Below are positions 1-48,794 of a stretch of DNA of 52,159 bases, piece after piece. The stretch is from Psychrobacter sp. FME6 (GTDB taxonomy: Bacteria > Pseudomonadota > Gammaproteobacteria > Pseudomonadales > Moraxellaceae). Under the pieces are notes generated by a model that saw nothing but the letters and a program-made list of their open reading frames with translations, searched no databases and had not been told where the DNA came from. The position numbers and the translations under genes are program-made. How positions within the stretch are numbered: the stretch's first letter is position 1; each line of letters opens with the position of its first letter. Location: positions 1-52,159 of the forward strand of contig NZ_RRYW01000012.1 in the NCBI RefSeq assembly GCF_014861365.1, written 5' to 3'.

Positions 1-55
1 ACGTTACTTTAATCAAAACCTCTTATCAGGTGTCCTAAATTAGTTGACCACTACA
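1..55. mobile_element. Probable terminal fragment of an IS3-like insertion sequence
   Basis: The 25 bases at 31-55 run from TGTCC to CTACA. Read on the other strand they start TGTAGTGGTCAACTA, the TG...CA style of IS3-family ends. Immediately to the right the reading frame becomes clean HsdS sequence, while to the left the same frame hits a stop at 41-43. This is what an insertion that cut hsdS would leave. The rest of the element is outside the window, so family and orientation are inferred from the end sequence alone. Confidence 0.4.
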
Positions 56-547
56 GTTGGACACTCTGAATACTACGGAGGGAAAATTCCATTTATTCGT
101 TCAGGAGAAGTTAGTAGTCATAAAACTGAGCTATTTATCACGGAAGAGGGATTGTTAAACTCTTCTGCTAAGCTAGTATCTAAAGGTGATGTTTTATATG
201 CGTTGTATGGTGCTACGAGTGGCGAGGTTTCTATTAGCAAAATAAATGGGGCGATCAACCAAGCTATTCTAGCAATAATACCTTCTAAGGGCTACAACTC
301 TGAGTTTATTGCTTACTGGTTAAGAATGAATAAGGGTAATATTGTAAACACTTATTTGCAAGGTGGACAAGGTAATTTGTCAGGAGGAATTATTAAAAGT
401 TTATTGATAAAATTACCATCATTTAAAGAACAAACCGCCATCGGTCAATTCTTTAAACAACTTGACAACACGCTAAGCCTACAAGCCAAGCAGCTCAAAA
501 CCTTAGAGAATATTAAAAAAGCCTTATTGGCAAAAATGTTTGTATAA
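44..547 (+). pseudogene. hsdS: Type I restriction specificity subunit HsdS, 3' remnant
   Basis: Encodes the last ~165 residues of an HsdS protein, the DNA-recognition subunit of a type I restriction-modification enzyme. The region around residues 10-25 (YYGGKIPFIRSGEV) is the typical start of a target-recognition domain. The C-terminal part (LPSFKEQTAIGQFFKQLD, then a Leu/Lys-rich helix) is the usual conserved coiled-coil spacer. A full HsdS is about 400 residues with two recognition domains, so only the second half is left. The open frame begins at a TTG at 44 directly after an in-frame TAG, inside what looks like an IS end, so no natural start is present. hsdR starts 17 bases downstream; hsdM is not in the window. 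On its own the fragment is unlikely to give a working specificity subunit. Confidence 0.8.
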
Positions 548-564
548 CCCATTAAGGCTCGCCC

Positions 565-3500
565 ATGACCTTTGCATCCGAAGCTAAATTTGAAGACGCG
601 CTTATCCATATCTTGCAGCAAAAAGGCTGGGAAGATCAAGTTATCAACCGACCCACTGAGCAAGAGCTTATCGATAACTGGGCGCGTATCTTATTTGAAA
701 ACAATCGTGGTATCGACCGCCTCAATAACGTACCGCTGACGGATGGTGAGATGCAGCAGCTTATTGAGCAAATTAATACCTTAAAGACGCCTTTGAAGCT
801 AAACGGCTTTATCAATGGTAAGACCGTGTCAATCACTCGTGATAACCCAGACGATACCTTGCACCTTGGCAAAGAGATCAGTCTAAAGATATATGATCGC
901 CATGAGATTGCCGCAGGGCAGAGCCGCTATCAGATTGTTAAGCAGCCACAATTCCCAACCAAGTCACCTGTGCTTCGTGACCGCCGTGGTGATCTCATGC
1001 TACTGATTAATGGCATGCCTGTCTTTCACATTGAGTTGAAGCGTAGCGGTGTGCCCGTCAGTCAAGCGTGCATCCAAGTCGAAAAATATAGCGAGGCAGG
1101 TATCTTTACAGGGCTGTTTGCATTGGTGCAAATATTTGTCGCTATGAACCCTGAGCAGTCGGTTTATTTTGCCAATCCCGATGGCAACTTTAACGATGAT
1201 TATTACTTTAGTTGGGCGAACTTCTACAATGAGCCGTACACCAGCTATAAAGAGATTGCCGCGTCCTTGCTGTCTATCCCTATGGCGCATCAGATGATCG
1301 GCTTTTATACCGTAGCGGACAAAGCCGATGGCGTGCTAAAGGTCATGCGCAGCTACCAGTATTATGCCGCCAATGCCATATCTGACAAGGTATCTACTAC
1401 CAAATGGCAAGATGCCAATAGCCAGCTTGGCGGCTATATCTGGCATACCACAGGCTCAGGCAAGACCATGACCAGCTTTAAGTCCGCGCAATTGATAGCC
1501 AGCTCACAAGACGCCGATAAAGTGATTTTTTTGATGGATCGCATTGAGCTGGGTACGCAGTCATTCATACAGTATCAAAACTTCGCTGATAGCAAGGACG
1601 GCGTACAAGACACCGATGACACCCATGCTTTGATCGGTAAAATTAAAAGTAGCGACCCAAAAGATACCCTGATTGTCACCTCCATTCAAAAGATGAGTAA
1701 TATCGAAGCCGACAGCAGCGGTATGAACGCTCATGATCTGAGTGTCATGCAAGACAAGCGTTTAGTATTTATCATCGATGAGGCGCATCGCTCAACCTTT
1801 GGCGATATGCTTAAAATCATTAAGCAAACTTTCCCAAATGCGATATTTTTTGGCTTTACGGGCACGCCCATTCACGATGAAAACCAGCGAAAAATGAACA
1901 CTACCGCTGATATCTTTGGCGATGAGCTGCATCGTTATAGCATCGCTGATGGTATTCGTGACAAGAACGTCTTGGGCTTTGATTTGTACCGCGTAGCCAC
2001 CTTTAAGGATAAAGAAGTGCGCCGCGCGGTAGCACTACAACAAGCCAAAGCCGATACTGAATCAGAAGCCTTAGCGGATGACGCTAAGAAAAAGAAGTAT
2101 TATGAGTTTATCAATGATGTCGCCATGGCAGGGCATAAACAAGCTGATGGCACGTATGTAAAAGGCATTGAGGATTACCTGCCAAAAGAGCAGTATTTGA
2201 CAGACGAGCACCAAAATATGGTGGTCGAAGATATCTTAGACAACTTCCCAACGCTGAGCCGAGGCGGTAAGTTTCATGCCATATTTGCTACCAGTAGTAT
2301 CATTGAAGCCATCACTTACTATCGTTTGCTAAAAGCACAAATCAAGGCGCAAGACCTCAATCTAAAAATAAGCGCTTTATTTGATGCCAATGAAGGCAAC
2401 GAGAAGACATCCGTTTTTAAAGAGCGCGGCATGGCTGAGATCATCACCGATTACAACAGCCAATATGACAAAGACTTTAAAATAGCCAGCCATAGCAAGT
2501 TTAAAAAAGATCTTGCCAATCGTCTGTCACATAAAGAGCCGTATCAGTTTATTGAGCGCACGCCAGATCAGCAGCTAGATATACTTATTGTTGTTGAGCA
2601 GATGCTAACAGGGTTCGATTCTAAGTGGGTTAATACCTTATATATCGATAAGCTCATACGTTACGAGAATATCATTCAAGCGTTCTCGCGTACCAACCGC
2701 TTATTTGGTCACGAAAAGCCCTTTGGTACGATTCGCTACTATCGTAAGCCCTATACCATGGAGCGCAATATCGCAGCAGCCATTAAGCTGTATTCTGGCG
2801 ACAAGCCCATTGGACTGTTTGTTGATAAGCTTGAGAGTAACTTGGCTAAGATGAATCATGTTTTCGCTGAGATACAAGCAGTATTTAGCGCAGATGGGAT
2901 AGCAAACTTTGAAGCGCTGCCTAGTGCTGAGGCAAGCCAAGCTAAATTTGCCAAGCTATTCAAACAGCTGAACGATCATTTAGAAGCAGCAGATATTCAA
3001 GGCTTCACGTGGGATAAGCTAAGCTATGATTTTGACGATACTAGCGTTACGCTGAGCTTTGATGAACAAACCTATCTGGTGCTAGCTATACGTTATAAAG
3101 AGCTGTTTCAAGGTGGCTCATCGGGCGGCTCAGGTGATGTGCCCTTTGATATCTCAGGGCATTTGACCCAGATCAATACTGACAGAATCGATACGGCGTA
3201 TCTAAACGAGCGCTTTAATAAATATATCGAATCACTCGAATTAGGCGATGCCGAGCAAGCGCTAAATGAATTACACAAAGCCTTTCCGACGCTAAGTGTT
3301 GATGAGCAAAAATACGCTAATATATTCTTGAATGATGTACAGCGAGGTAAGGTCAAAGTCGAAGTAAATAGTACCTTTAAAGACTATATCGTTGACTATC
3401 AAGTAAAAGATCAGAACGATACTATTCAGCAATTTGCAGATAGCTTAGGGCTGGATGAGGCACAGCTGCGGACGCTTTTAGACAGCGCTGTGACTGAGGC

Positions 3501-3672
3501 GAATATCAATGAGTTTGGACGCTTTGATGAGCTAAAAAATACCGTGGATAAAGATAAGGCTAAAGCGTACTTTGAATCTGTAGAGGGCAGCAGTATCCCT
3601 ATGTTTAAGGTTAATATAAAGATTGACGCCGTATTGAGAGCATTTGTTTTGAGTGAGGGCAGGCTAGAGTAG
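565..3672 (+). CDS. hsdR: Type I restriction endonuclease subunit R (HsdR)
   Basis: The 1035-residue motor and nuclease subunit of a type I restriction enzyme, which translocates DNA using ATP and cuts it far from the recognition site. An N-terminal PD-(D/E)xK nuclease is visible as GDLMLLINGM followed by HIELKR near residue 156. The SF2 helicase motor shows Walker A HTTGSGKT near 294-301, a DEAH box (IIDEAHRS) near 403-410, motif III-like GFTGTPI, and late motifs MLTGFDSK and QAFSRTNR. Length is normal and the frame intact. The ATG at 565 follows an AAGG ribosome site and lies 17 bases after the hsdS remnant, so the two were co-transcribed. With hsdS broken and hsdM not seen, restriction activity in this strain is doubtful unless other copies supply the missing subunits. 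Confidence 0.95.
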   Translation: MTFASEAKFEDALIHILQQKGWEDQVINRPTEQELIDNWARILFENNRGIDRLNNVPLTDGEMQQLIEQINTLKTPLKLNGFINGKTVSITRDNPDDTLHLGKEISLKIYDRHEIAAGQSRYQIVKQPQFPTKSPVLRDRRGDLMLLINGMPVFHIELKRSGVPVSQACIQVEKYSEAGIFTGLFALVQIFVAMNPEQSVYFANPDGNFNDDYYFSWANFYNEPYTSYKEIAASLLSIPMAHQMIGFYTVADKADGVLKVMRSYQYYAANAISDKVSTTKWQDANSQLGGYIWHTTGSGKTMTSFKSAQLIASSQDADKVIFLMDRIELGTQSFIQYQNFADSKDGVQDTDDTHALIGKIKSSDPKDTLIVTSIQKMSNIEADSSGMNAHDLSVMQDKRLVFIIDEAHRSTFGDMLKIIKQTFPNAIFFGFTGTPIHDENQRKMNTTADIFGDELHRYSIADGIRDKNVLGFDLYRVATFKDKEVRRAVALQQAKADTESEALADDAKKKKYYEFINDVAMAGHKQADGTYVKGIEDYLPKEQYLTDEHQNMVVEDILDNFPTLSRGGKFHAIFATSSIIEAITYYRLLKAQIKAQDLNLKISALFDANEGNEKTSVFKERGMAEIITDYNSQYDKDFKIASHSKFKKDLANRLSHKEPYQFIERTPDQQLDILIVVEQMLTGFDSKWVNTLYIDKLIRYENIIQAFSRTNRLFGHEKPFGTIRYYRKPYTMERNIAAAIKLYSGDKPIGLFVDKLESNLAKMNHVFAEIQAVFSADGIANFEALPSAEASQAKFAKLFKQLNDHLEAADIQGFTWDKLSYDFDDTSVTLSFDEQTYLVLAIRYKELFQGGSSGGSGDVPFDISGHLTQINTDRIDTAYLNERFNKYIESLELGDAEQALNELHKAFPTLSVDEQKYANIFLNDVQRGKVKVEVNSTFKDYIVDYQVKDQNDTIQQFADSLGLDEAQLRTLLDSAVTEANINEFGRFDELKNTVDKDKAKAYFESVEGSSIPMFKVNIKIDAVLRAFVLSEGRLE

Positions 3673-3750
3673 AAGATTTCTTGGTATGTAAAGAATGACA
3701 AATAAGTAAAATTAATTTCTAGATTAACAGTTTCATAGGCATAACTTAAC

Positions 3751-4611
3751 ATGAACAACATTGTCATCAAAACGATTCAGCCCTCCGATATACTAAGAGT
3801 TGACACCGCTGAAAAAAACGACATTGTAAGTGATGTTTTCACTGGCAATGTATTTCATGAGGATAAAGACATACCCGTTTATTTTAAAGCGTATGCTTAT
3901 GATCATCCGCATGTCACTACAGGTGATCGAGGGATGCTTAATGAAATTATTGGCTACTTGATTTGTGATTTATATAAAGTACCGCAACCTGAACAAGCGT
4001 TTTTAGTATTGATGCCTAAAGACAGTCTTACGCATTTGTGGAGTCATCTTAGCGATCGCCTCAAAAAAAGCTATGAGACTAACGACGTGATTCCTATGTT
4101 TGCTACGCAGCGTATGTATGCCAAAGCATTATCGCTTAGATACAATCATAGCAGACAAGCTGTAGAGCGTGAGCTTATTAAATGGACACATTTCAAAGAA
4201 GCACTAATTTGTGATGAGGTCATGGCAAATACAGATCGCCTACCTCGTAACATTCTAACCGCCAACGCAAAAGATTTTTGGTTAATTGACAATGGCAAAC
4301 TTGCTATAGAAGACGGCACTAACTGGCAGTCAACAGATCTCATTGAGAATAATAATTATAGTAATTATTTGGCTGATCTAGTGATTAGGGACATACAGGC
4401 TGATAGCAAAAAAGGCAATCTCATTATACAAACAGCATTAAAGAAATTTAAAGCCATTAGGCAGATCACAGCTGAATGTGAGTTTTGGATAGAGGTATTA
4501 GCAAGTAATCAAGATCGTGAAATATGGCAGAAATTCTTAGCATTTTTGCAAAGTAGAGATCATAATATCACTCATATTTTAAGTGAACGCTATGGGATGC
4601 TGTCATTATGA
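3751..4611 (+). CDS. HipA-like (HipA_2-type) kinase
   Basis: A 286-residue protein with the outline of a HipA-family protein kinase. A likely ATP-anchoring lysine is at residue 46 (VYFKAY), followed by the NEIIGYLICDLYKVPQP helix with Glu65. A catalytic loop is visible at 155-167 (DEVMANTDRLPRN, Asp162 and Asn167), and a metal-binding aspartate at 180 (WLIDNG). It is shorter than classical HipA (about 440 residues), lacks the HipA N-terminal domain and has no HipB-like gene beside it. It overlaps the next gene, a DUF3037 protein, by 4 bases (ATGA), so the pair is translationally coupled. Small HipA-like kinases paired with DUF3037 proteins are a recurring combination of unknown role. Its position after hsdR suggests a phage-defence or toxin-like function, which is inference. 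Confidence 0.75.
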   Translation: MNNIVIKTIQPSDILRVDTAEKNDIVSDVFTGNVFHEDKDIPVYFKAYAYDHPHVTTGDRGMLNEIIGYLICDLYKVPQPEQAFLVLMPKDSLTHLWSHLSDRLKKSYETNDVIPMFATQRMYAKALSLRYNHSRQAVERELIKWTHFKEALICDEVMANTDRLPRNILTANAKDFWLIDNGKLAIEDGTNWQSTDLIENNNYSNYLADLVIRDIQADSKKGNLIIQTALKKFKAIRQITAECEFWIEVLASNQDREIWQKFLAFLQSRDHNITHILSERYGMLSL

Positions 4612-5513
4612 ATTGGACAAGCTTACTACAACCTAAAGATGCGATGGCTTCTTTTATCAAAGGTCATTTTTTTGTCATCAAATTCACACCTGATATTGTA
4701 GCCAAAGAAGTATTTAACCTAGGTGTTGGTTTTATAGAAGATGGTAATGAAAAAATTCGGTTTAAGCTGGCTCACTCAAGCTTGAAAGGCTTTGCTTGTA
4801 TCTACGGTAAAAATGCCGTTCAAGGTCTAAGACTGTTATTACAGTCTATCTCAACAGCATTAAATACAGTAGGATATTCTTATCCACCCTCTTCACAGCT
4901 GACCTATACGACATTAATGCCTACTAAGGGCTTATCTATAGAAGCGATTCTAGACTCGTTATATCGTGATTATGTGCATATGGATCACTTTCAAGAAAAG
5001 AAAAAACCGACAGTGCCTGTTCTTAACACAGTAGAGCTACGTAAGGGATTAAAGCAAAGCTTAAAGAGTATTAATAAAACTGAGTATTATCAGGAAGAAG
5101 AAATCCTACTAGAAAGTAACATTGACAATAGTGAGATTGCTTTAGACCTACCTATTTGGCGACCACAGCAAAAAAACAGTCTTTTTGAAAACGATTGTCT
5201 ATTTGCAACTGTAGTGTCAGCTGATTATCTAGAAAAAAACGCCCTAAGTTTTAATTTAGATTATTTGGGTTGTAGTAATATACAAAAAGCATGTCTGTTA
5301 ACAGGCCAAGAAGCTAAAGCTGGGCTATTTATATATCGTCCAGCGCCCAATGAGCGTATTACGCAAGATGTTATAGATGACATCGATAGCCATATAGAAA
5401 AATCGTTATACGCTTTAAAGCATCTAAGACAAAAAGAAGGCTATAACATTGAAATGGATGTTTTATATAGCGAAGAAGAAGTTTACAACAAGGTAGCTGA
5501 TTTTGTAACTTAG
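4608..5513 (+). CDS. DUF3037 domain protein, partner of the HipA-like kinase
   Basis: A 301-residue protein whose N-terminal segment (about residues 21-46: FFVIKFTPD, then KEVFNLGVGFIED) matches the DUF3037 pattern, an aromatic-rich strand followed by E-x-x-N-x-G-V. No enzymatic motif, signal peptide or membrane segment is visible. The start codon overlaps the stop of the upstream kinase gene (ATGA), implying coupled translation and a physical or regulatory partnership. A strong rho-independent terminator at 5560-5590 closes the operon. It could be a substrate, adaptor or antitoxin of the kinase; the sequence does not distinguish these. Confidence 0.7.
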   Translation: MNWTSLLQPKDAMASFIKGHFFVIKFTPDIVAKEVFNLGVGFIEDGNEKIRFKLAHSSLKGFACIYGKNAVQGLRLLLQSISTALNTVGYSYPPSSQLTYTTLMPTKGLSIEAILDSLYRDYVHMDHFQEKKKPTVPVLNTVELRKGLKQSLKSINKTEYYQEEEILLESNIDNSEIALDLPIWRPQQKNSLFENDCLFATVVSADYLEKNALSFNLDYLGCSNIQKACLLTGQEAKAGLFIYRPAPNERITQDVIDDIDSHIEKSLYALKHLRQKEGYNIEMDVLYSEEEVYNKVADFVT

Positions 5514-5559
5514 CTATAATTTATATAAATAAGCATTATCAAAGCGATACAATAAAGGG

Positions 5560-5591
5560 CAGATCATTTAAATGGGTGATCTGTTTTTTTT
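5560..5591 (+). terminator. Rho-independent terminator after the kinase-DUF3037 pair
   Basis: CAGATCA (5560-5566) pairs perfectly with TGATCTG (5577-5583) across a 10-base loop and is followed by eight T residues. It ends the upstream operon. It also contains the first in-frame ATG of the next reading frame (5572), which argues against that ATG being a real start. Confidence 0.85.
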
Positions 5592-5658
5592 GCTAATAAG
5601 TTCGCTTTACCTCTATACTAGCCCTAATGATCAATTCAAAATTGAAACTTATACTGTT

Positions 5659-7305
5659 ATGCTGAACCACTACCAAAGCCTTGTCCTAAGCCTCACTCAG
5701 CAGCCAACCGAGCAAGAATGGCTTGAGTTTAAGCATAACTTTCATAGCCCTGATGAGATTGGCAAGCGAATATCTGCGCTTGCTAATGGTGCGTGTTTGG
5801 CTGGCAAGAAGTTTGGTTATTTGGTGTTTGGCGTAGAGGACGGCACGCACAACATCGTTGGCACAAGCTTTAGCCCGAGGACAAAAAAAGCCAAAGGCAA
5901 CGAAGATTTAGAGCATTGGCTGATAAGCCGTATAAGCCCTAAGATTCACTTTACCATTCATGAGCTACAGATCGATGGTAAAGCGGTGATACTTTTTGAG
6001 ATTCCAGCAGCCATCGATACACCAATTAGCTTTTTGCATGAGCCTTATATTCGCATTGGTAGCGTCACAAAACCGCTAAAGCACTATCCAGATCAAAGCC
6101 GTAAGCTATGGCAGAATCAAGCCGATGACTGGAGTGCTGAGATTTGCCACGAGGCAGCGCTTGAAGATCTTGACCCTCAAGCAATCGCCGTTGCCAGACA
6201 AGTCTTTGCTGATAAAAACAAGCGTTTGGCTGAAGACGTCAAAGAGTGGGACGACATCACTTTTTTAAATAAAGCCAAAATTACTATTCACGGTCAAATC
6301 ACCCACACGGCGATTATCTTATTAGGTCGTTATGAATCCACAAGTTTTTTAAGCCCAGCCCAAGCGCATATCACATGGATTTTAAAGGGGATTGATGGCA
6401 TTGAAAAAGATTATGAGCATTTTGAACCACCGTTTTTGTTAGTCTTAGATGAGGTGTATAACAAGATCCGTAATCTCAATTATCGCTACATGGCGTCAGG
6501 TACGCTGTTTCCTGAAGAGGTGCAGCAGTACGATCCTTATATCATTCGTGAAGCGTTAAGCAACGCCATTGGTCATCAAGACTATCGCTTAGGCGGACGT
6601 ATCATAGTAGTTGAAAAAGAAGACTCAACACTATTGTTCCAAAACAGCGGCGCATTTATCCCTAAGACTATTGAGAATGTCTTGCTACAAGATGCGCCTG
6701 AAGCGAGTTATCGCAATCCGTTTTTGGTCAATGCAATGGTCAGTCTAAATATGATGGACACCATCGGTAGCGGCATCAAAAAAATGTATCAGATTCAGTC
6801 CAAGCGCTTTTTTCCTCTGCCAGATTATGACTTAACCCGTGAAAGGGTAGGCGTGAAGTTTACAGGTAAAGTGCTTGATCAAGAGTACGCCAAGCAGTTA
6901 GCAACCGTCGATAATCTCACACTGCATGACATTATAGCGCTTGATAAAGTGCAAAAAGGGCAAGTGATCACTGAAAATGAAGCAGATGCGTTACGTAAAA
7001 AATCCTTAATAGAAGGGCGCAAAAACAGCTATATTATCGCCGCTGATGTCGCTAAGCATACTGAGCAGCAAGCGGAGTATATGTTACTCAAAGGGCTTAA
7101 TGAAAAGTATTATGAAGCAGCTGTCCTAGATTTGTTGCAGCAATTTGGAGAGGCGAGTCGTTCAGACTTTGATAAGCTTTTGTATAATAAACTGCCTGAA
7201 GTTTTAACAGATGAGCAAAAGTTTCATAAAATAAAAAATTTACTCCAAAAAATGAAGAAAAAAAAGCTCATTTATTTTGAAGATAAGGTTTGGAAGTTGG
7301 TCTAA
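5659..7305 (+). CDS. Schlafen AlbA_2 / HATPase_c_4 domain protein
   Basis: A 548-residue protein from the preferred start. The N-terminus (WLEFKHNF at residues 21-28, then GKRISALANG and GYLVFGVEDG) is the AlbA_2/Schlafen-type nucleic-acid-binding domain. Around residues 290-320 the segment REALSNAIGHQDY is a GHKL-type ATP-binding motif (HATPase_c_4). The C-terminus looks like a winged-helix segment. Such proteins were often annotated as RecG-like helicases or transcriptional regulators and commonly sit beside restriction systems. The frame is open from 5572, but that ATG lies in the loop of a terminator hairpin and the extra residues look artificial, so the ATG at 5659 is chosen. It has no close cotranscribed neighbour. 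Its exact role is unknown; defence or regulation is inferred from context. Confidence 0.8.
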   Translation: MLNHYQSLVLSLTQQPTEQEWLEFKHNFHSPDEIGKRISALANGACLAGKKFGYLVFGVEDGTHNIVGTSFSPRTKKAKGNEDLEHWLISRISPKIHFTIHELQIDGKAVILFEIPAAIDTPISFLHEPYIRIGSVTKPLKHYPDQSRKLWQNQADDWSAEICHEAALEDLDPQAIAVARQVFADKNKRLAEDVKEWDDITFLNKAKITIHGQITHTAIILLGRYESTSFLSPAQAHITWILKGIDGIEKDYEHFEPPFLLVLDEVYNKIRNLNYRYMASGTLFPEEVQQYDPYIIREALSNAIGHQDYRLGGRIIVVEKEDSTLLFQNSGAFIPKTIENVLLQDAPEASYRNPFLVNAMVSLNMMDTIGSGIKKMYQIQSKRFFPLPDYDLTRERVGVKFTGKVLDQEYAKQLATVDNLTLHDIIALDKVQKGQVITENEADALRKKSLIEGRKNSYIIAADVAKHTEQQAEYMLLKGLNEKYYEAAVLDLLQQFGEASRSDFDKLLYNKLPEVLTDEQKFHKIKNLLQKMKKKKLIYFEDKVWKLV

Positions 7306-7307
7306 GA

Positions 7308-7407
7308 TTAGACGAACTTAGACGAACTTAGACGAACTTAGACGAACTTAGACGAACTTAGACGAACTTAGACGAACTTAGACGAACTTAGACGAACTTA
7401 GACGAAC
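7308..7407. repeat. Perfect tandem repeat, ten copies of TTAGACGAAC
   Basis: Ten uninterrupted, identical 10-bp units directly after the stop codon (TAA 7303-7305) of the AlbA_2 gene. They are followed at once by the terminator at 7408. There are no spacers, so it is not a CRISPR array. Perfect identity means recent expansion by slippage, or selection. Confidence 0.98.
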
Positions 7408-7440
7408 AAAAAAATAAGCCGCATTAAGCGACTTATTTTT
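7408..7440. terminator. Bidirectional terminator between the convergent AlbA_2 and alpA genes
   Basis: AAAAATAAG pairs with CTTATTTTT around an inner CGC/GCG stem (7421-7430 region). A-rich on the left and T-rich on the right, it can serve both the plus-strand AlbA_2 gene and the minus-strand alpA gene. Confidence 0.75.
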
Positions 7441-7449
7441 GGGTAGTGC

Positions 7450-7710
7450 TCAATGGAAACGAGCAGCTATCTTACCTTCAATCCACTGAGCTATTTCACT
7501 TTCAACCCATGCCACACGCCCTTTAGATAGCTTAACCTGAATAGGGAAGGTGGGGTCATAACGGTTCGATCTTTTATCGAGCATATCGTAAATCGTTGTG
7601 CTGCTAAGTCCTGTGTAGTGTACGACCTGTTTTAGCGGCAGCATTCGCGGTATCTGTGGCATGCTTAGTATTGATGTGTTTTGCTGAGTATTTGCGTTTA
7701 AATTTTCCAT
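7450..7710 (-). CDS. alpA: AlpA-family DNA-binding regulator
   Basis: A small helix-turn-helix protein of 86 residues from the chosen start. The core LKQVVHYTGLSSTTIYDMLD, then FPIQVKLSKGRVAWVESEIAQWI is the hallmark of AlpA/excisionase-like (MerR-type HTH) regulators found in P4-like elements and tRNA-inserted islands. Family members activate or assist integrase-driven excision. The frame extends 11 codons upstream, but the ATG at 7710 has an AAGGAG site 7 bases away and is preferred. It is the last gene of the minus-strand island gene set and lies 6.6 kb from the integrase it may work with. Confidence 0.85.
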   Translation of the reverse strand: MENLNANTQQNTSILSMPQIPRMLPLKQVVHYTGLSSTTIYDMLDKRSNRYDPTFPIQVKLSKGRVAWVESEIAQWIEGKIAARFH

Positions 7711-7821
7711 GATTATCTCCTTGTAAGTGAACGAGAGCATCACCTCTCATATACTTACCGAGTCCCATATTTTTTTATGGCCTCCCATGCAGTCCGAGCG
7801 TTAGCCTTTGATGCAGGTAAT

Positions 7822-7852
7822 AAAAAAAGGAGCTGATCTGATCAACTCCTTT
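7822..7852 (-). terminator. Rho-independent terminator of the RDF-like gene
   Basis: On the minus strand AAAGGAGTTGATC pairs with GATCAGCTCCTTT and is followed by T residues. It lies 27 bases after the stop of the 7879-8778 gene, separating it from alpA. Confidence 0.8.
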
Positions 7853-7878
7853 CTATGCCATTATTTATCTGTCACGAG

Positions 7879-8778
7879 TTAGCTCACCGCTGTCACGCTT
7901 TGACGTAAGCCTTGCGCGATACTGCGGGTGTTTGGCTGCATAGTTTTCTCTACCTTGCTAGGCATTTGATTGCTATCATCTTGCGGATAAAACTCTTCCA
8001 CCACATCAGACATCTCATCGCCATCAACTTCAAAGCACGAATTGGCATAACCAAGCGTGGCAGCTTGCTCTAACGCTGTTTGATCAAAGCCGTTTTCGCT
8101 AAGCTCACTATCAATTGCCTTAGCTTGCTGTACCGCGTCTTTGAGTGTTACCCCATCTCTTAGCGTTAAATCCACAAAGTAAATGGGTGTGCGATAGCTT
8201 TGGGTGGTGCTTTTACCTCGTAAGGTTAATTGCAGGGGCAAGCAGGACAGCTTATTACCTGATACTGCGGCGAAGTAGCTTAAGCGTGCCGCAAGGGTGC
8301 GAATACTATTAAAGCCTGTAGTACGAAAGATAAACGTACCCAGCTCATCGTCCTCAGACAGATTGACGTACAGACGACCGTAAGGTTTACAAGCACCACC
8401 TTGTGCTAATGGGCAACGATCAGGTGATGGGCAAGGCAGTTGCTCCATGCCGTTATTGGTACGCCGCTGACAGTGTTCGCCATCTCCCACGCATAACGGA
8501 CGACCCGTTTGCCGATCGAATAGCGTGTACTGAGCGCGCAAATTAAGATCAGGATCATTGAACAGCATGCGTACGGGTATTTGTCTGAGCTTACCTTCAC
8601 TACGTGCGCGGAGCTTTTCATCAAGCGGATGATTGACCCAGCCGTCTTTATTTTGCACTTGGCTGGTAATGGTGAATTGATCGTCTTTGGCAGGTAGGCG
8701 TTTGCCATCCTTTTGGATAACGCGTCCAATGCTGATACGACCGAGTACGGGCGGGGTAATCGTTAGACCTTTAATCAT
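7879..8778 (-). CDS. Phage/ICE protein resembling recombination directionality factor (Gp3-like)
   Basis: A 299-residue protein of the type often annotated 'hydrolase or metal-binding protein' in Pseudomonadales islands, possibly related to the Gp3-like recombination directionality factor family. Visible features are an N-terminal strand-rich segment (residues 1-20, GLTITPPVLGRISIG), a cysteine set at residues 96, 103, 116, 122 and 130 that could bind zinc or a cluster, and a hydrophobic core around LPLQLTLRGK. The last ~50 residues are polar and look disordered. It starts at an ATG with AAGGA upstream and has its own terminator. It sits in a gene set with a YqaJ-type exonuclease and DUF932, so a role in island DNA recombination or replication is likely. 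Exact function uncertain. Confidence 0.6.
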   Translation of the reverse strand: MIKGLTITPPVLGRISIGRVIQKDGKRLPAKDDQFTITSQVQNKDGWVNHPLDEKLRARSEGKLRQIPVRMLFNDPDLNLRAQYTLFDRQTGRPLCVGDGEHCQRRTNNGMEQLPCPSPDRCPLAQGGACKPYGRLYVNLSEDDELGTFIFRTTGFNSIRTLAARLSYFAAVSGNKLSCLPLQLTLRGKSTTQSYRTPIYFVDLTLRDGVTLKDAVQQAKAIDSELSENGFDQTALEQAATLGYANSCFEVDGDEMSDVVEEFYPQDDSNQMPSKVEKTMQPNTRSIAQGLRQSVTAVS

Positions 8779-8822
8779 GATGATATTCCTTATTTGTTTA
8801 ATAATTTGAATAAATCGACATA

Positions 8823-8851
8823 AAAAAGCCCACCTGTGATAGGTGGGCTTT
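8823..8851 (-). terminator. Rho-independent terminator of the YqaJ-like gene
   Basis: On the minus strand AAAGCCCACCT pairs with AGGTGGGCTTT with a 5-base loop, followed by a T run. It lies just after the stop of the 8885-10012 gene. Confidence 0.85.
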
Positions 8852-8884
8852 ATGCGTTTGGTTAATGAGACTAGCTGTCTTGGT

Positions 8885-10012
8885 TTAATTATCGTTTAAG
8901 ATGACGAAGCGACGACTGTCTTGACGGGTTTTACTAAATTTATCCATCAGCTCAGGATGGGCTTTAGTGACGGCTTTACTGTCTAAGCTCACACTATCCT
9001 TAGAGCGCTTCCATGAGATTGCGCCTTTGTCAAAGACCGCTACTTCATTGTCTTTGATTAAGCTTTGCAGTTGATGTTTGATCTGGTCATGCTGCTTTTG
9101 TAGCTCACTCAGTGAGTCACGGTGACTCAGTAACTTAGTGAATAGCTTATTAGCCCCAGCGTCTTCGCTGAAATCGATTTTACTGGCAGGCTCAGGCTTA
9201 GGGTAAAGCTGCTTTAAGGCGCGCGCCGCTGACTCAGAATGATCGGGCGTTGGCGGTGTATCCGTTTCTACGTATTGCCAGAACAGACGCTCATGCCACA
9301 GAATGCTATTGATCAGTTGCTCATCGCGCTCAACCTTGTAGATCTTCGCTTCGTGTCCGCAGAGTAGGACACAAATATGCGCGGCTTGTTTGCCTGTGAC
9401 TGCCAGTTGATGCTGTACTTGGCAAGTGACGTATAACGGTACGCCATGCTTCCACAGCTTAGCCCCATGTTCCCCAGCGGTTTTGCATTCCAGTATCTGT
9501 ACCTCATCGCTACCAGTGATGGCGTAATCCAAGTTCGCTAACATAAAATGCTGCTCAGGATCAGGGTGCTGCAAGATGGCGTTGACGCGACGAACCTTAT
9601 TGCCAGTCTGTTCTTGATAGTATTTCGCCACCATAGGCTCTAAGGTGTTGCCCCAATACAGCGGTGAGTACCCTTCGATGCTCTCATCAATGTTTGAGGT
9701 CATACGCCCTGTTTTAATCATCCACAGCTCCAGCATTGATAAATACGGATGAATACCACACGCAGCAGCAGCGTCACTACTACCAATGCCTTGCTTGCGA
9801 ATCTCAAGCCATTTGTCATGGCTGAGATTTTTGGTGCTGACCAGACGTTTTGCTGTGGCTTTGACAGTTTTGTCTTTCTGAACGATGTTTTTCTCGGTTG
9901 GCTGAATTGTCTTAGCATTAATTTTAGCAGTCGGTTTTGTGTGTCTAGCTTGCAATGCTTTACGCTTACGACGTCTCGTTGGAGCGGTGTTGTTTAAAGC
10001 GATGGTTTCCAT
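8885..10012 (-). CDS. YqaJ/lambda-exonuclease family recombination nuclease
   Basis: A 375-residue protein with a basic, low-complexity N-terminus (first ~60 residues) followed by a YqaJ-type nuclease domain. Key residues are visible: GIGSSDAAA at 75-83 (Asp80), Glu125 in GNTLEPMVAKYY, Asp162 in LANLDYAI, the ECK motif at 175-177, and QVQHQL at 198-203. This is the layout of lambda exonuclease-type enzymes, which resect double-stranded ends for single-strand annealing. A coiled-coil-like tail follows (around SHRDSLSELQKQHDQIKHQL). AAGGA precedes the ATG. No obvious RecT/Bet annealase is in the window, unless one of the neighbouring proteins fills that role. Confidence 0.85.
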   Translation of the reverse strand: METIALNNTAPTRRRKRKALQARHTKPTAKINAKTIQPTEKNIVQKDKTVKATAKRLVSTKNLSHDKWLEIRKQGIGSSDAAAACGIHPYLSMLELWMIKTGRMTSNIDESIEGYSPLYWGNTLEPMVAKYYQEQTGNKVRRVNAILQHPDPEQHFMLANLDYAITGSDEVQILECKTAGEHGAKLWKHGVPLYVTCQVQHQLAVTGKQAAHICVLLCGHEAKIYKVERDEQLINSILWHERLFWQYVETDTPPTPDHSESAARALKQLYPKPEPASKIDFSEDAGANKLFTKLLSHRDSLSELQKQHDQIKHQLQSLIKDNEVAVFDKGAISWKRSKDSVSLDSKAVTKAHPELMDKFSKTRQDSRRFVILNDN

Positions 10013-10065
10013 GATAGATTCCTTATAAATAGATTAGTGAATGTGATCGGTTGAATAATCGGCAT

Positions 10066-10093
10066 AAAAAAACCACGCTCTAGGGCGTGGTTA
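10066..10093 (-). terminator. Rho-independent terminator of the DUF932 gene
   Basis: On the minus strand AACCACGC pairs with GCGTGGTT and is followed by seven T residues, 20 bases past the stop of the DUF932 gene. Confidence 0.85.
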
Positions 10094-10113
10094 TTGCTGG
10101 TGTCATAAAACAA

Positions 10114-11106
10114 CTAAGCGATTAAGGCTCGCGCATCCTGTAGACCTTTTTCCTTCAGCTTAGCCCCAGCACCGAACCATGCTGAGTTAAGCCGATTGTC
10201 GGTGTTCATCGCTCGGCGCTCATGATCGACGTATTCAGTGATACTACAGAGCAAGCCATAAGCAGTGTCTTTAGCCGCATCGAGATCAGCACCGCGTCCT
10301 TGACCATTAAACATCTGCATCACCTTATTCATTGCGCGAGCATTGGGAACCGCATCTTTTTCTTTCTTCGCGCTGTTAAATAAAATGATGTCATTGTCCT
10401 GATCGTTAAACACACGGCTAAGATAGTTAGCCGCTTCCGCTTGGGTAACACGGCGCTCAGACAATTGTTTCATCTCGTAGATGTGCTCATCCCACTGTTT
10501 AACCGATACGCCCAATTGCTGTTTGACCTTGTCAGCATCAAAGGAGGTGGAGTGCGGGACTTTCACCACGCCACCACTACCATCAGCAAGGCTTACCGCA
10601 AGCGTGTTATTACACACCACACGGATATTGGTAAACTGCGCTGTAGTCGCAAGCGTGCCATCACAAGCAGTTGCCAGCAGTAAGTAGCCATTACTGACAT
10701 CACCGCCCCTAAGACTGGCTGACTGGCCTGTACGTGCCAATGCCCATAGCTTACGACCACCCTTTAACACACCTGCGGTTTCAAGCTCAAAGTGTGAGTG
10801 TTCCGTGAGCTCACGATAAAACTCAAGTATCTCCTCAGGCTGTACTTCCTGATAGCGCTGACTGACCACTGATAACGGATCAAGCGTGTCGGAGCGGTAC
10901 AAGACCTTTTGATCAGCGAATGGCAAGATAAGGTTATGCCCTCGATCGTTCTCAGCCATGTAGCTGACGTCCGACGATTCGATACGCCAATCCATTCCTG
11001 CCTCACGTGCCCAAACCTCTAACGGCTGCTTGGGAGATAGCTCATTCCCTAAGCCGTGCCAAGGGGTTTCGCCAACGTATGCCATGCTTTCTACTAAATG
11101 TGCCAT
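10114..11106 (-). CDS. DUF932 phage/plasmid-like protein
   Basis: A 330-residue protein matching the DUF932 family (the TIGR03299 phage/plasmid-like type). It begins with the characteristic WHGLGNEL segment near residues 17-24 and continues with IRVVCNNTLAVSLADG around 160-175. No catalytic motif is known for the family, which is widespread on plasmids, ICEs and phages next to recombination genes. An AAGGA site precedes the ATG. It sits between a YqaJ-type nuclease gene and a zinc-ribbon gene on the same strand. A role in island DNA metabolism is inferred from context only. Confidence 0.85.
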   Translation of the reverse strand: MAHLVESMAYVGETPWHGLGNELSPKQPLEVWAREAGMDWRIESSDVSYMAENDRGHNLILPFADQKVLYRSDTLDPLSVVSQRYQEVQPEEILEFYRELTEHSHFELETAGVLKGGRKLWALARTGQSASLRGGDVSNGYLLLATACDGTLATTAQFTNIRVVCNNTLAVSLADGSGGVVKVPHSTSFDADKVKQQLGVSVKQWDEHIYEMKQLSERRVTQAEAANYLSRVFNDQDNDIILFNSAKKEKDAVPNARAMNKVMQMFNGQGRGADLDAAKDTAYGLLCSITEYVDHERRAMNTDNRLNSAWFGAGAKLKEKGLQDARALIA

Positions 11107-21693: not shown

Positions 21694-21837
21694 AAGTAAA
21701 CTGCATAGGGTTAGAGGCAAAAAAAGTAATCATTACTCATTCATAAAATGATCGCGTCGCTATAAGAATAGCTATTCATCTTTCTTTTACGGCAACAGGC
21801 GCTGTGTCATGTTGCGGCATTGAATTATCGAGGCATT

Positions 21838-21912
21838 GTCATAAAAGGTACGGTCATAAGAAACACGGTTATAAAAGGTACTGTCATAAAAAACATCGTA
21901 ATAAATATGTCT
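21838..21912. repeat. Degenerate 15-bp tandem repeat, five units
   Basis: Units start at 21838, 21853, 21868, 21883 and 21898 and follow the pattern GTCATAAAAGGTACG with substitutions (for example GTCATAAGAAACACG and GTTATAAAAGGTACT). The 15-bp spacing is exact through all five. Confidence 0.75.
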
Positions 21913-48749: not shown

Positions 48750-48794
48750 ATCTAAGTCTATAAAATCTAAGTCTATAAAATCTAAGTCTAAAAG
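48750..48794. repeat. 15-bp tandem repeat after the hotdog gene
   Basis: ATCTAAGTCTATAAA occurs twice in a row (48750, 48765) and a third time with three changes (48780). It lies between the hotdog gene stop and the shared terminator, so it will be transcribed in the 3' end. Confidence 0.8.

Follow-up and report, generated by a model that had tools for sequence, protein, structure and literature searches.

A perfect 10-bp repeat array directly after a Schlafen-type gene of Psychrobacter: candidate DNA sites for the winged helix of the preceding protein

Introduction

Bacterial Schlafens are described as phage-defence RNases, and the parts of the literature that we found leave their control unexplained. 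Prokaryotic proteins that combine a Schlafen RNase, a minimal histidine kinase and a wHTH domain are tied to BREX and related defence, according to the available part of PMC12839542, which cites Taboada et al. 2025 (bioRxiv). Here we analyze a stretch of 52,159 nucleotides from Psychrobacter sp. FME6 (contig NZ_RRYW01000012.1; the window), which encodes a protein with the identical domain order, directly followed by a short tandem array. The gene in the window accompanies type I restriction genes, and brxA and brxC are nearby in the homologous locus L108. In the text of PMC12839542, neither “tandem repeat” nor “operator” occurs, and “repeat” appears three times, at least once in connection with another domain.

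Type III toxin-antitoxin systems (ToxIN and kin) likewise consist of an RNase gene with an adjacent repeat array, and the phage PhiTE carries an RNA-level mimic of the toxin-neutralising repeat (PMC5377504, available part). ToxI acts as RNA, whereas in the loci studied here the phasing of the repeats and the winged helix of the protein point to DNA; furthermore, the units are 10-21 bp long and placed after the gene. No ToxN, CptN or TenpN family was found among the Pfam, PADLOC and NCBIfam matches of the 577-aa protein. In the plasmid centromeres tubC/TubR and parC/ParR, direct repeats adjoin the binder gene too; TubR is a winged-helix protein, and the bound repeats give a filament or superhelix (PMC5016525, available part). 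The window appears to share this centromere-type trait, namely, helically phased direct repeats beside the gene of the likely binder. Unlike tubC and parC, the array is located 3' of the gene rather than upstream, and unlike TubR and ParR, the putative binder carries a putative RNase and an ATPase in the same polypeptide. Among nine window proteins (44 to 11106), there was no Pfam match to ParM or TubZ. The sources returned by our literature search, as far as available, contain no report of such cognate arrays beside Schlafen-type genes. With a matched array, the expected binding site can be read from the genome for many homologues, and binding and orthogonality become testable; phages can be screened for mimic arrays, and a seemingly trivial repeat becomes a marker for finding such defence systems.

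Results

The array and its site. The repeat search located ten perfect copies of TTAGACGAAC with a 10-bp period at positions 7308-7407 of the window (plus strand), with 100% matches and no indels. This is the top-scoring tandem array of the window (score 200, compared to 95 for the runner-up); more short tandem repeats, with 15-bp and 30-bp periods, lie at 48750-48790 and 21834-21905. The Schlafen-type gene ends with TAA (7303-7305), and the array starts after a gap of two bases; a terminator-like hairpin (7410-7440, given without a strand from the terminator listing and RNA folding) follows the array after a further two bases. A previous interpretation made from the letters alone (the sequence-only reading) had claimed ten perfect copies between a stop codon and a terminator, and both points were confirmed. 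The hairpin is a minus-strand entry in the terminator listing and folds also as plus-strand RNA. It is the sole hairpin in the centroid fold of the plus-strand RNA; in the minimum-energy fold, the first array units additionally pair with the end of the gene. Apart from this hairpin, the array RNA has little predicted structure. The check suggested by the sequence-only reading, a search for the unit elsewhere in the genome (3.36 Mb), showed that adjacent TTAGACGAAC pairs are confined to this array. Single units occur three times elsewhere, compared to 21 occurrences of the reversed word; with only three extra single units, a regulon of single sites was rejected.

The protein encoded before the array. 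The gene at 5572-7305 (plus strand) encodes a 577-aa protein that Pfam and a structure model resolve into SLFN_AlbA_2, histidine-kinase-type ATPase and winged-helix parts; Met30 (near 5659), which is invariant in alignment A1, may be its true start. The Schlafen AlbA_2 domain (aa 47-169; 5710-6078) matches PF04326 with E 1e-21 and 78.1 bits, compared to the Pfam cut-off of 25.3. In the region aligned to 5yd0, Glu47, Glu52 and Asp90 match the catalytic Glu205, Glu210 and Asp248 of SLFN13, with spacings of 5 and 38 in both proteins, and all three residues are invariant in the 12 sequences of alignment A1. Because the catalytic residues are matched in both spacing and alignment, RNase activity of the protein is plausible, and we consider it probable. 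The histidine-kinase-type (GHKL) ATPase domain (about aa 264-434; 6361-6873) matches HATPase_c_4 (PF13749) with E 6e-9, and the model contains a histidine kinase CA-type domain at 264-434. The two Pfam matches, together with the position 3' of hsdS-hsdR in a type I restriction operon, agree with the earlier description of a defence-type gene.

In the model, residues 509-577 (7096-7302), the presumed reader of the array, form a winged helix, which is supported by comparison to the Rpa2 winged helix (Z 10.0, rmsd 1.3, 61 aligned) and to DpnI with DNA (Z 9.4, rmsd 1.9, 65 aligned). Over most of its length, the model is best matched by DIP2311 of Corynebacterium diphtheriae (PDB 3lmm, structural genomics; Foldseek E 2e-21, VIA Z 23.9, 424 aligned), with an overall rmsd of 15.7, i.e., the domains are placed differently.

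Gene neighbourhoods. According to the domain search, the window starts with the C-terminal part of hsdS at the contig start (44-547), followed by hsdR, the type I restriction subunit (565-3672), and two ORFs without family match, of 286 aa (3751-4611) and 301 aa (4608-5513), all on the plus strand. The latter two (3751-5513) sit between hsdR and the Schlafen gene, and have homologues with 55-73% identity at the WY6 locus L107. On the other side of the array, a convergent gene for an AlpA-type regulator (7450-7743, minus strand) is followed by genes for a recombination-directionality-like Gp3, YqaJ and DUF932; this content of 7450-11106 suggests a mobile island. In Moraxella lacunata and G071, the array has the Schlafen gene on one side and an hsdR-type gene on the other, and in G004 it is followed by an ORF whose start resembles hsdR by eye. 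On the Sulfitobacter and Phaeobacter plasmids, the array separates the Schlafen gene from a DEAD/DEAH helicase gene. Other Schlafen loci adjoin type I restriction genes, a methyltransferase and helicase pair (plasmids) or BREX genes; in another locus, a ThsA-like SIR2 gene is located ~3 kb from the Schlafen gene, and in L098 the closest upstream gene of the Schlafen homologue encodes a solute-binding protein.

The same unit in relatives. A Schlafen homologue (E<=1e-40) was found in 36 of 299 Moraxellaceae genomes. The double unit TTAGACGAACTTAGACGAAC (class A) is present in eight of the 299 and, in all eight, lies directly 3' of a Schlafen-gene homologue; one of the eight has an additional array within a prophage. 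The number of exact copies is 10 in the window, FME13 and M. lacunata, 9 in WY6, 8 in G218, 7 in G071, 5 in G244, and 3 plus a one-letter variant in G102. Thus, the expectation that the array would vary in length between strains was borne out across the eight genomes. A constant copy number and absence of the repeat from homologous loci had been named as the contrary case; copy numbers instead range from 3 to 10, and homologous loci often carry arrays. Identity between the M. lacunata protein and that of the window is only 47%, yet the two units agree letter for letter, which would not be produced by neutral drift. In G244, a class A gene and a class B gene (defined below) are ~17 kb apart, suggesting that the two can coexist in one genome.

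Other units at the same place. Homologues without the class A unit often have other short repeats directly after, or overlapping, the stop codon. Class B has the core TAGCTA with a 10-bp period (for example, an array of ATAGCTAAAG), and class C has TTTAGACATT each 20-21 bp (11 bp in L084). The class D unit is TGAGAGAG. Class E consists of TGCAGAATAA or TGCAGAGTAA, found in the Moraxellaceae genome L069, the same-class genome L077 and the Bacteroidota scan, i.e., the scan of the phylum of a Bacteroidetes-titled MAG; in Sinorhizobium, the class E unit is TGCAGAAAG. Genomes of the phylum scan and two plasmids of Roseobacteraceae carry class G, TAAGAAAG or TACGAAAG. The Bacteroidota scan yielded the further units TTAGAAGAG, TTAAGAGAAG and TTACGATTGA, and two of its loci (L229 and L230) mix TTAGACATT and TTAGACGAAC within one array. 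Homologues with E<=1e-60 were detected in 14 of 369 genomes of the class and in 7 of 299 genomes of the phylum, both including the own genome, and homologues with E<=1e-50 in 27 of 345 genomes of the Bacteroidota scan.

We calculated a repeat score by banded self-alignment around the stop codon, including the 12 bases before the stop-codon end, and compared it to dinucleotide shuffles (significant at p<=0.05). The score was significant in 35 of 49 non-redundant homologues, compared to 5 of 70 control long ORFs from the same loci (Mann-Whitney p 7e-15); in the Bacteroidota scan, 12 of 24 loci reached significance. The homologues are mutual relatives, and these 35/49 and 12/24 are counts of non-independent trials. 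Outside Moraxellaceae, 11 of 21 loci were significant. The 49 homologues are what remains of 56 loci after removal of L087 (no C-terminus) and six duplicates or near-duplicates; the 24 remain of 30 after removal of L254 (no C-terminus) and the near-duplicates L238, L246, L250, L251 and L255. Conversely, the shuffle test detected no significant tandem array in 14 of the 49 and 12 of the 24. By eye, several array-negative homologues contain dispersed cores, and some (for example, L080, L083 and L089) contain nothing clear.

Across the seven non-palindromic classes, units in host loci are on the sense strand in 178 cases versus 2. In 105 genomes of the genus, class B arrays were found in six and class C arrays in six, whereas the reversed patterns were found in none; 10 of these 12 arrays follow a Schlafen gene or its remnant. 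Such remnants, with an internal deletion or with only the C-terminal part left, are seen in L290 and L311, where the array is retained. Class C and class B arrays of Psychrobacter genomes also occur with no Schlafen match within 3 kb (L292, around 1501-1532, and L312, 1501-1536, respectively); by eye, the L312 array is apparently inside a short inverted-repeat element.

Helical phasing. We tallied start-to-start spacings of up to 45 bp between motif matches. The spacing is 10 in all 52 cases of class A, 10-11 in 43 of 50 cases of class B, 20-21 in 35 of 39 cases of class C (the remainder being 11, 11, 11 and 41) and 11 in all six cases of class E. Phasing is less strict in class D, where 11, 20 or 21 account for 8 of 11 spacings, and in class G, where 11 or 20 account for 5 of 9. 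Since the motif expressions were picked by eye and spacings above 45 bp were left out, we added a motif-free autocorrelation as a check. It showed peaks at lags of 10, 20, 30 and 40 for 66 non-class-A homologues (z of 8.8, 9.4, 3.0 and 4.8), and a broad peak at lags 10-13, with none at 20, for the 45 homologues from outside Moraxellaceae. In degenerate arrays, the linkers vary and the cores and their spacing are kept. Such near-constant helical spacing despite varying linkers is indicative of proteins bound along one side of the DNA duplex. The sequence-only reading had derived one-sided binding from the 10-bp period; comparison strengthens this suggestion, with whole-turn spacings predominating across several unit classes unrelated to each other.

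Joint change of winged helix and array. When class A and class B genes are compared within Psychrobacter, the bodies of the proteins are 87-96% identical, whereas the winged helix (the last 67 residues) is 36-46% identical. At the DNA level (blastn), homology of the window to the class B loci extends from about 5660 to 7083 in three of three loci, and there is none over the winged-helix codons and the array. For L106, it returns at 7409, directly 3' of the array, and extends across the shared hairpin and alpA. The alpA homologies of L103 (from 7408) and L101 (from 7462) are displaced downstream in their own loci, by about 0.7 to 2.4 kb. Thus, a two-sided exchange in place is seen in L106 alone of the three. 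Because the homology gap spans the winged helix and the array, with the left flank shared by all three loci and the right flank directly by L106, the two were apparently exchanged together, as a single cassette (presumed extent 7084-7408, plus strand).

The same trend was found in pairs of proteins with bodies at least 85% identical: the median cosine of the 3' flanks was 0.42 for 55 pairs with a winged helix at least 60% identical, compared to 0.01 for 24 pairs with a winged helix below 50%. That winged helix and array change together implies a required match between the two. For distant proteins, overall winged-helix identity has no predictive value for the unit: the winged helix of the window shares 46-48% identity with its counterparts in the class A loci L065 and L066, and 52% with that in the class C locus L084. 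A partial Mantel test with k-mers (66 homologues; L056 and frames below 380 aa additionally excluded) gave 0.108 (p 0.012) for flank and C-terminus given body, and 0.089 (p 0.024) for flank and body given C-terminus, a weak, nearly symmetric family-wide signal. The case for joint change comes from the comparison of close relatives.

Phage and prophage arrays. Pairs of TTTAGACATT spaced 19-22 bp were found in 81 viral stretches, compared to 7 for the reversed word and 5 for spacings of 13-18. Coding sequence may account for some of the surplus relative to the reversed word: the reverse complement of the class C motif reads ATG-TCT-AAA, a plausible gene start, and 11 of the 65 distinct phage contexts, all counted among the 81 stretches, are inside ORFs of at least 90 aa. 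The spacing control is unaffected by a single gene start. In the 65 contexts, extra copies within 90 bp occur only at 9-12, 20-23, 41-44, 66 and 88 bp from the selected pair; nine contexts are in sense and six in antisense orientation to both neighbour genes. In many viral contigs among L129-L214, these helically phased arrays lie, for example, by genes for an endolysin, GroEL, an ATP-dependent protease and an SbcC-like protein. No Schlafen protein or reader domain was matched beside the phage arrays in the stored contig stretches L111-L215 by tblastn (1e-4), or in these stretches and L011, L013, L015 and L110 by hmmsearch (limit E 1).

Class A pairs were present in 29 viral stretches, of which 23 were discounted as lying inside ORFs of at least 100 aa, many with repeated Leu-Asp-Glu-Leu codons by eye; the other six have spacings of 11, 12, 20, 21, 21 and 33. 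Similarly, many of the 24 viral stretches with the class B pattern are simple repeats by eye, and few resemble class B arrays (e.g., L112, L114 and L129). The viral contig stretch L215 contains, at about 78-155, seven GCAGAGTAA units (class E), and the short end of the preceding gene is unlike a Schlafen winged helix by eye.

The prophage L129 carries four class B cores and, ~600 bp away, four class C cores that follow its integrase gene (arrays at 5704-5738 and 6327-6397). Its chromosomal neighbour gene is 74-79% identical in 11 of 13 same-genus genomes, the own genome included (one of the others is at 51%, and one is split into 82% and 68%), compared to 40-57% in six genomes of other families of the order; these identities suggest that the host is Psychrobacter or close to it. 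In L151, a class C array follows the integrase gene by 16 bp. M. lacunata, the genome of which has a class A Schlafen gene, also harbours a prophage array of three perfect TTAGACGAAC units plus one variant (L011, 2405-2434; also in L015 and L110). This array lies downstream of a promoter-like stretch (by eye) and precedes an ORF of 111 aa that has no Pfam match; beside it, the search detected no Schlafen homologue. The phage and prophage arrays are possible decoys.

Discussion

The recurrent placement of the arrays, their phasing, the class-specific units, and the way winged helix and array change together in close relatives are features of the loci themselves. We propose, with a probability of about 0.6, that the array consists of helically phased DNA sites for the winged helix of the preceding Schlafen-type protein, and probably serves as an anchor or brake. 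Binding of the winged helix to the array is very probable given these comparisons, and a brake rather than plain transcriptional control is a tentative suggestion that may well prove wrong. Each 10-bp unit would take one winged helix, all on the same face of the DNA, and, judging by the phasing, the protein would line up head to tail along the end of its own gene; winged-helix TubR on the tubC repeats offers a precedent (PMC5016525, available part). The array-bound protein would be kept at its own locus, assembled and inactive, i.e., the array would be an anchor or brake on a putative tRNA-type RNase tied to restriction or BREX, and infection would release or re-activate the docked protein. 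That the docked protein would be silent is suggested by the joint change of reader and array, by the placement in the window with no co-directional gene to control, and by the phage arrays. A bolder extension appears rather unlikely: the array would be the DNA counterpart of an antitoxin that silences the Schlafen RNase, reader and array would form an exchangeable specificity cassette, and phage or prophage mimics would keep the RNase docked and thereby evade defence.

The main rival is transcriptional control, in loci where hsdR or res follows the array. The bound array would then be an operator or roadblock that controls the downstream genes (hsdR, res), or read-through and convergent transcription, by way of autoregulation of the defence operon. 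We consider this unlikely. The order of genes in M. lacunata, G071 and, by eye, G004, with hsdR-type genes after the array, and on the Sulfitobacter and Phaeobacter plasmids, with a helicase gene in this place, is in its favor; in the window, by contrast, a terminator-like hairpin and the convergent alpA come next. In addition, the 13-20 kb around seven class A loci contain no exact class A unit outside the array, and a promoter operator elsewhere was rejected on the same count (exact matches only). An RNA element, in which the repeats are transcribed and, as antitoxin or decoy RNA, bind the AlbA_2/RNase part in the style of type III toxin-antitoxin systems, is improbable. The array adjoins a putative RNase gene, is probably transcribed and has a hairpin directly after it, and the sense orientation of the units in host loci (178 to 2) fits this idea as well. 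However, the spacings are mostly helical turns of DNA even where linkers vary, the unit varies with the winged helix and not with the AlbA_2 domain, and RNA folding predicts little structure within the array itself; the mixed orientation of phage arrays is a weak point against it. Thus, of the two roles offered by the sequence-only reading, a 3' UTR element or a protein array, the phasing and the comparison favor probable protein sites, and an RNA role is disfavored.

The variable copy number (3 to 10 exact copies in class A) and the perfect copies, a sign of recent homogenisation, could also result from neutral slippage in a replication-prone sequence devoid of function. This is highly improbable: the identical unit follows a gene 47% identical, unrelated units form arrays in the corresponding position, cores and their spacing persist in degenerate arrays with varying linkers, the array changes jointly with the winged helix, and arrays are rare after unrelated genes (5/70 versus 35/49 homologues). 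The neutral alternative entertained by the sequence-only reading fails on the first of these points and on the close relatives, in which another unit accompanies another C-terminal domain. The observation behind the sequence-only reading is real; its interpretation is supported in part but needs replacing, and its main omission was the match of the array to the gene before it.

It should be mentioned that the unit also occurs in a different setting. In the Bacteroidetes MAG, two TTAGACGAAC and two TCAGACGAAC units are located upstream of a uvrA-like ORF by eye (L013, 7409-7448), and a match to the N-terminal Schlafen part lies elsewhere in the same genome.
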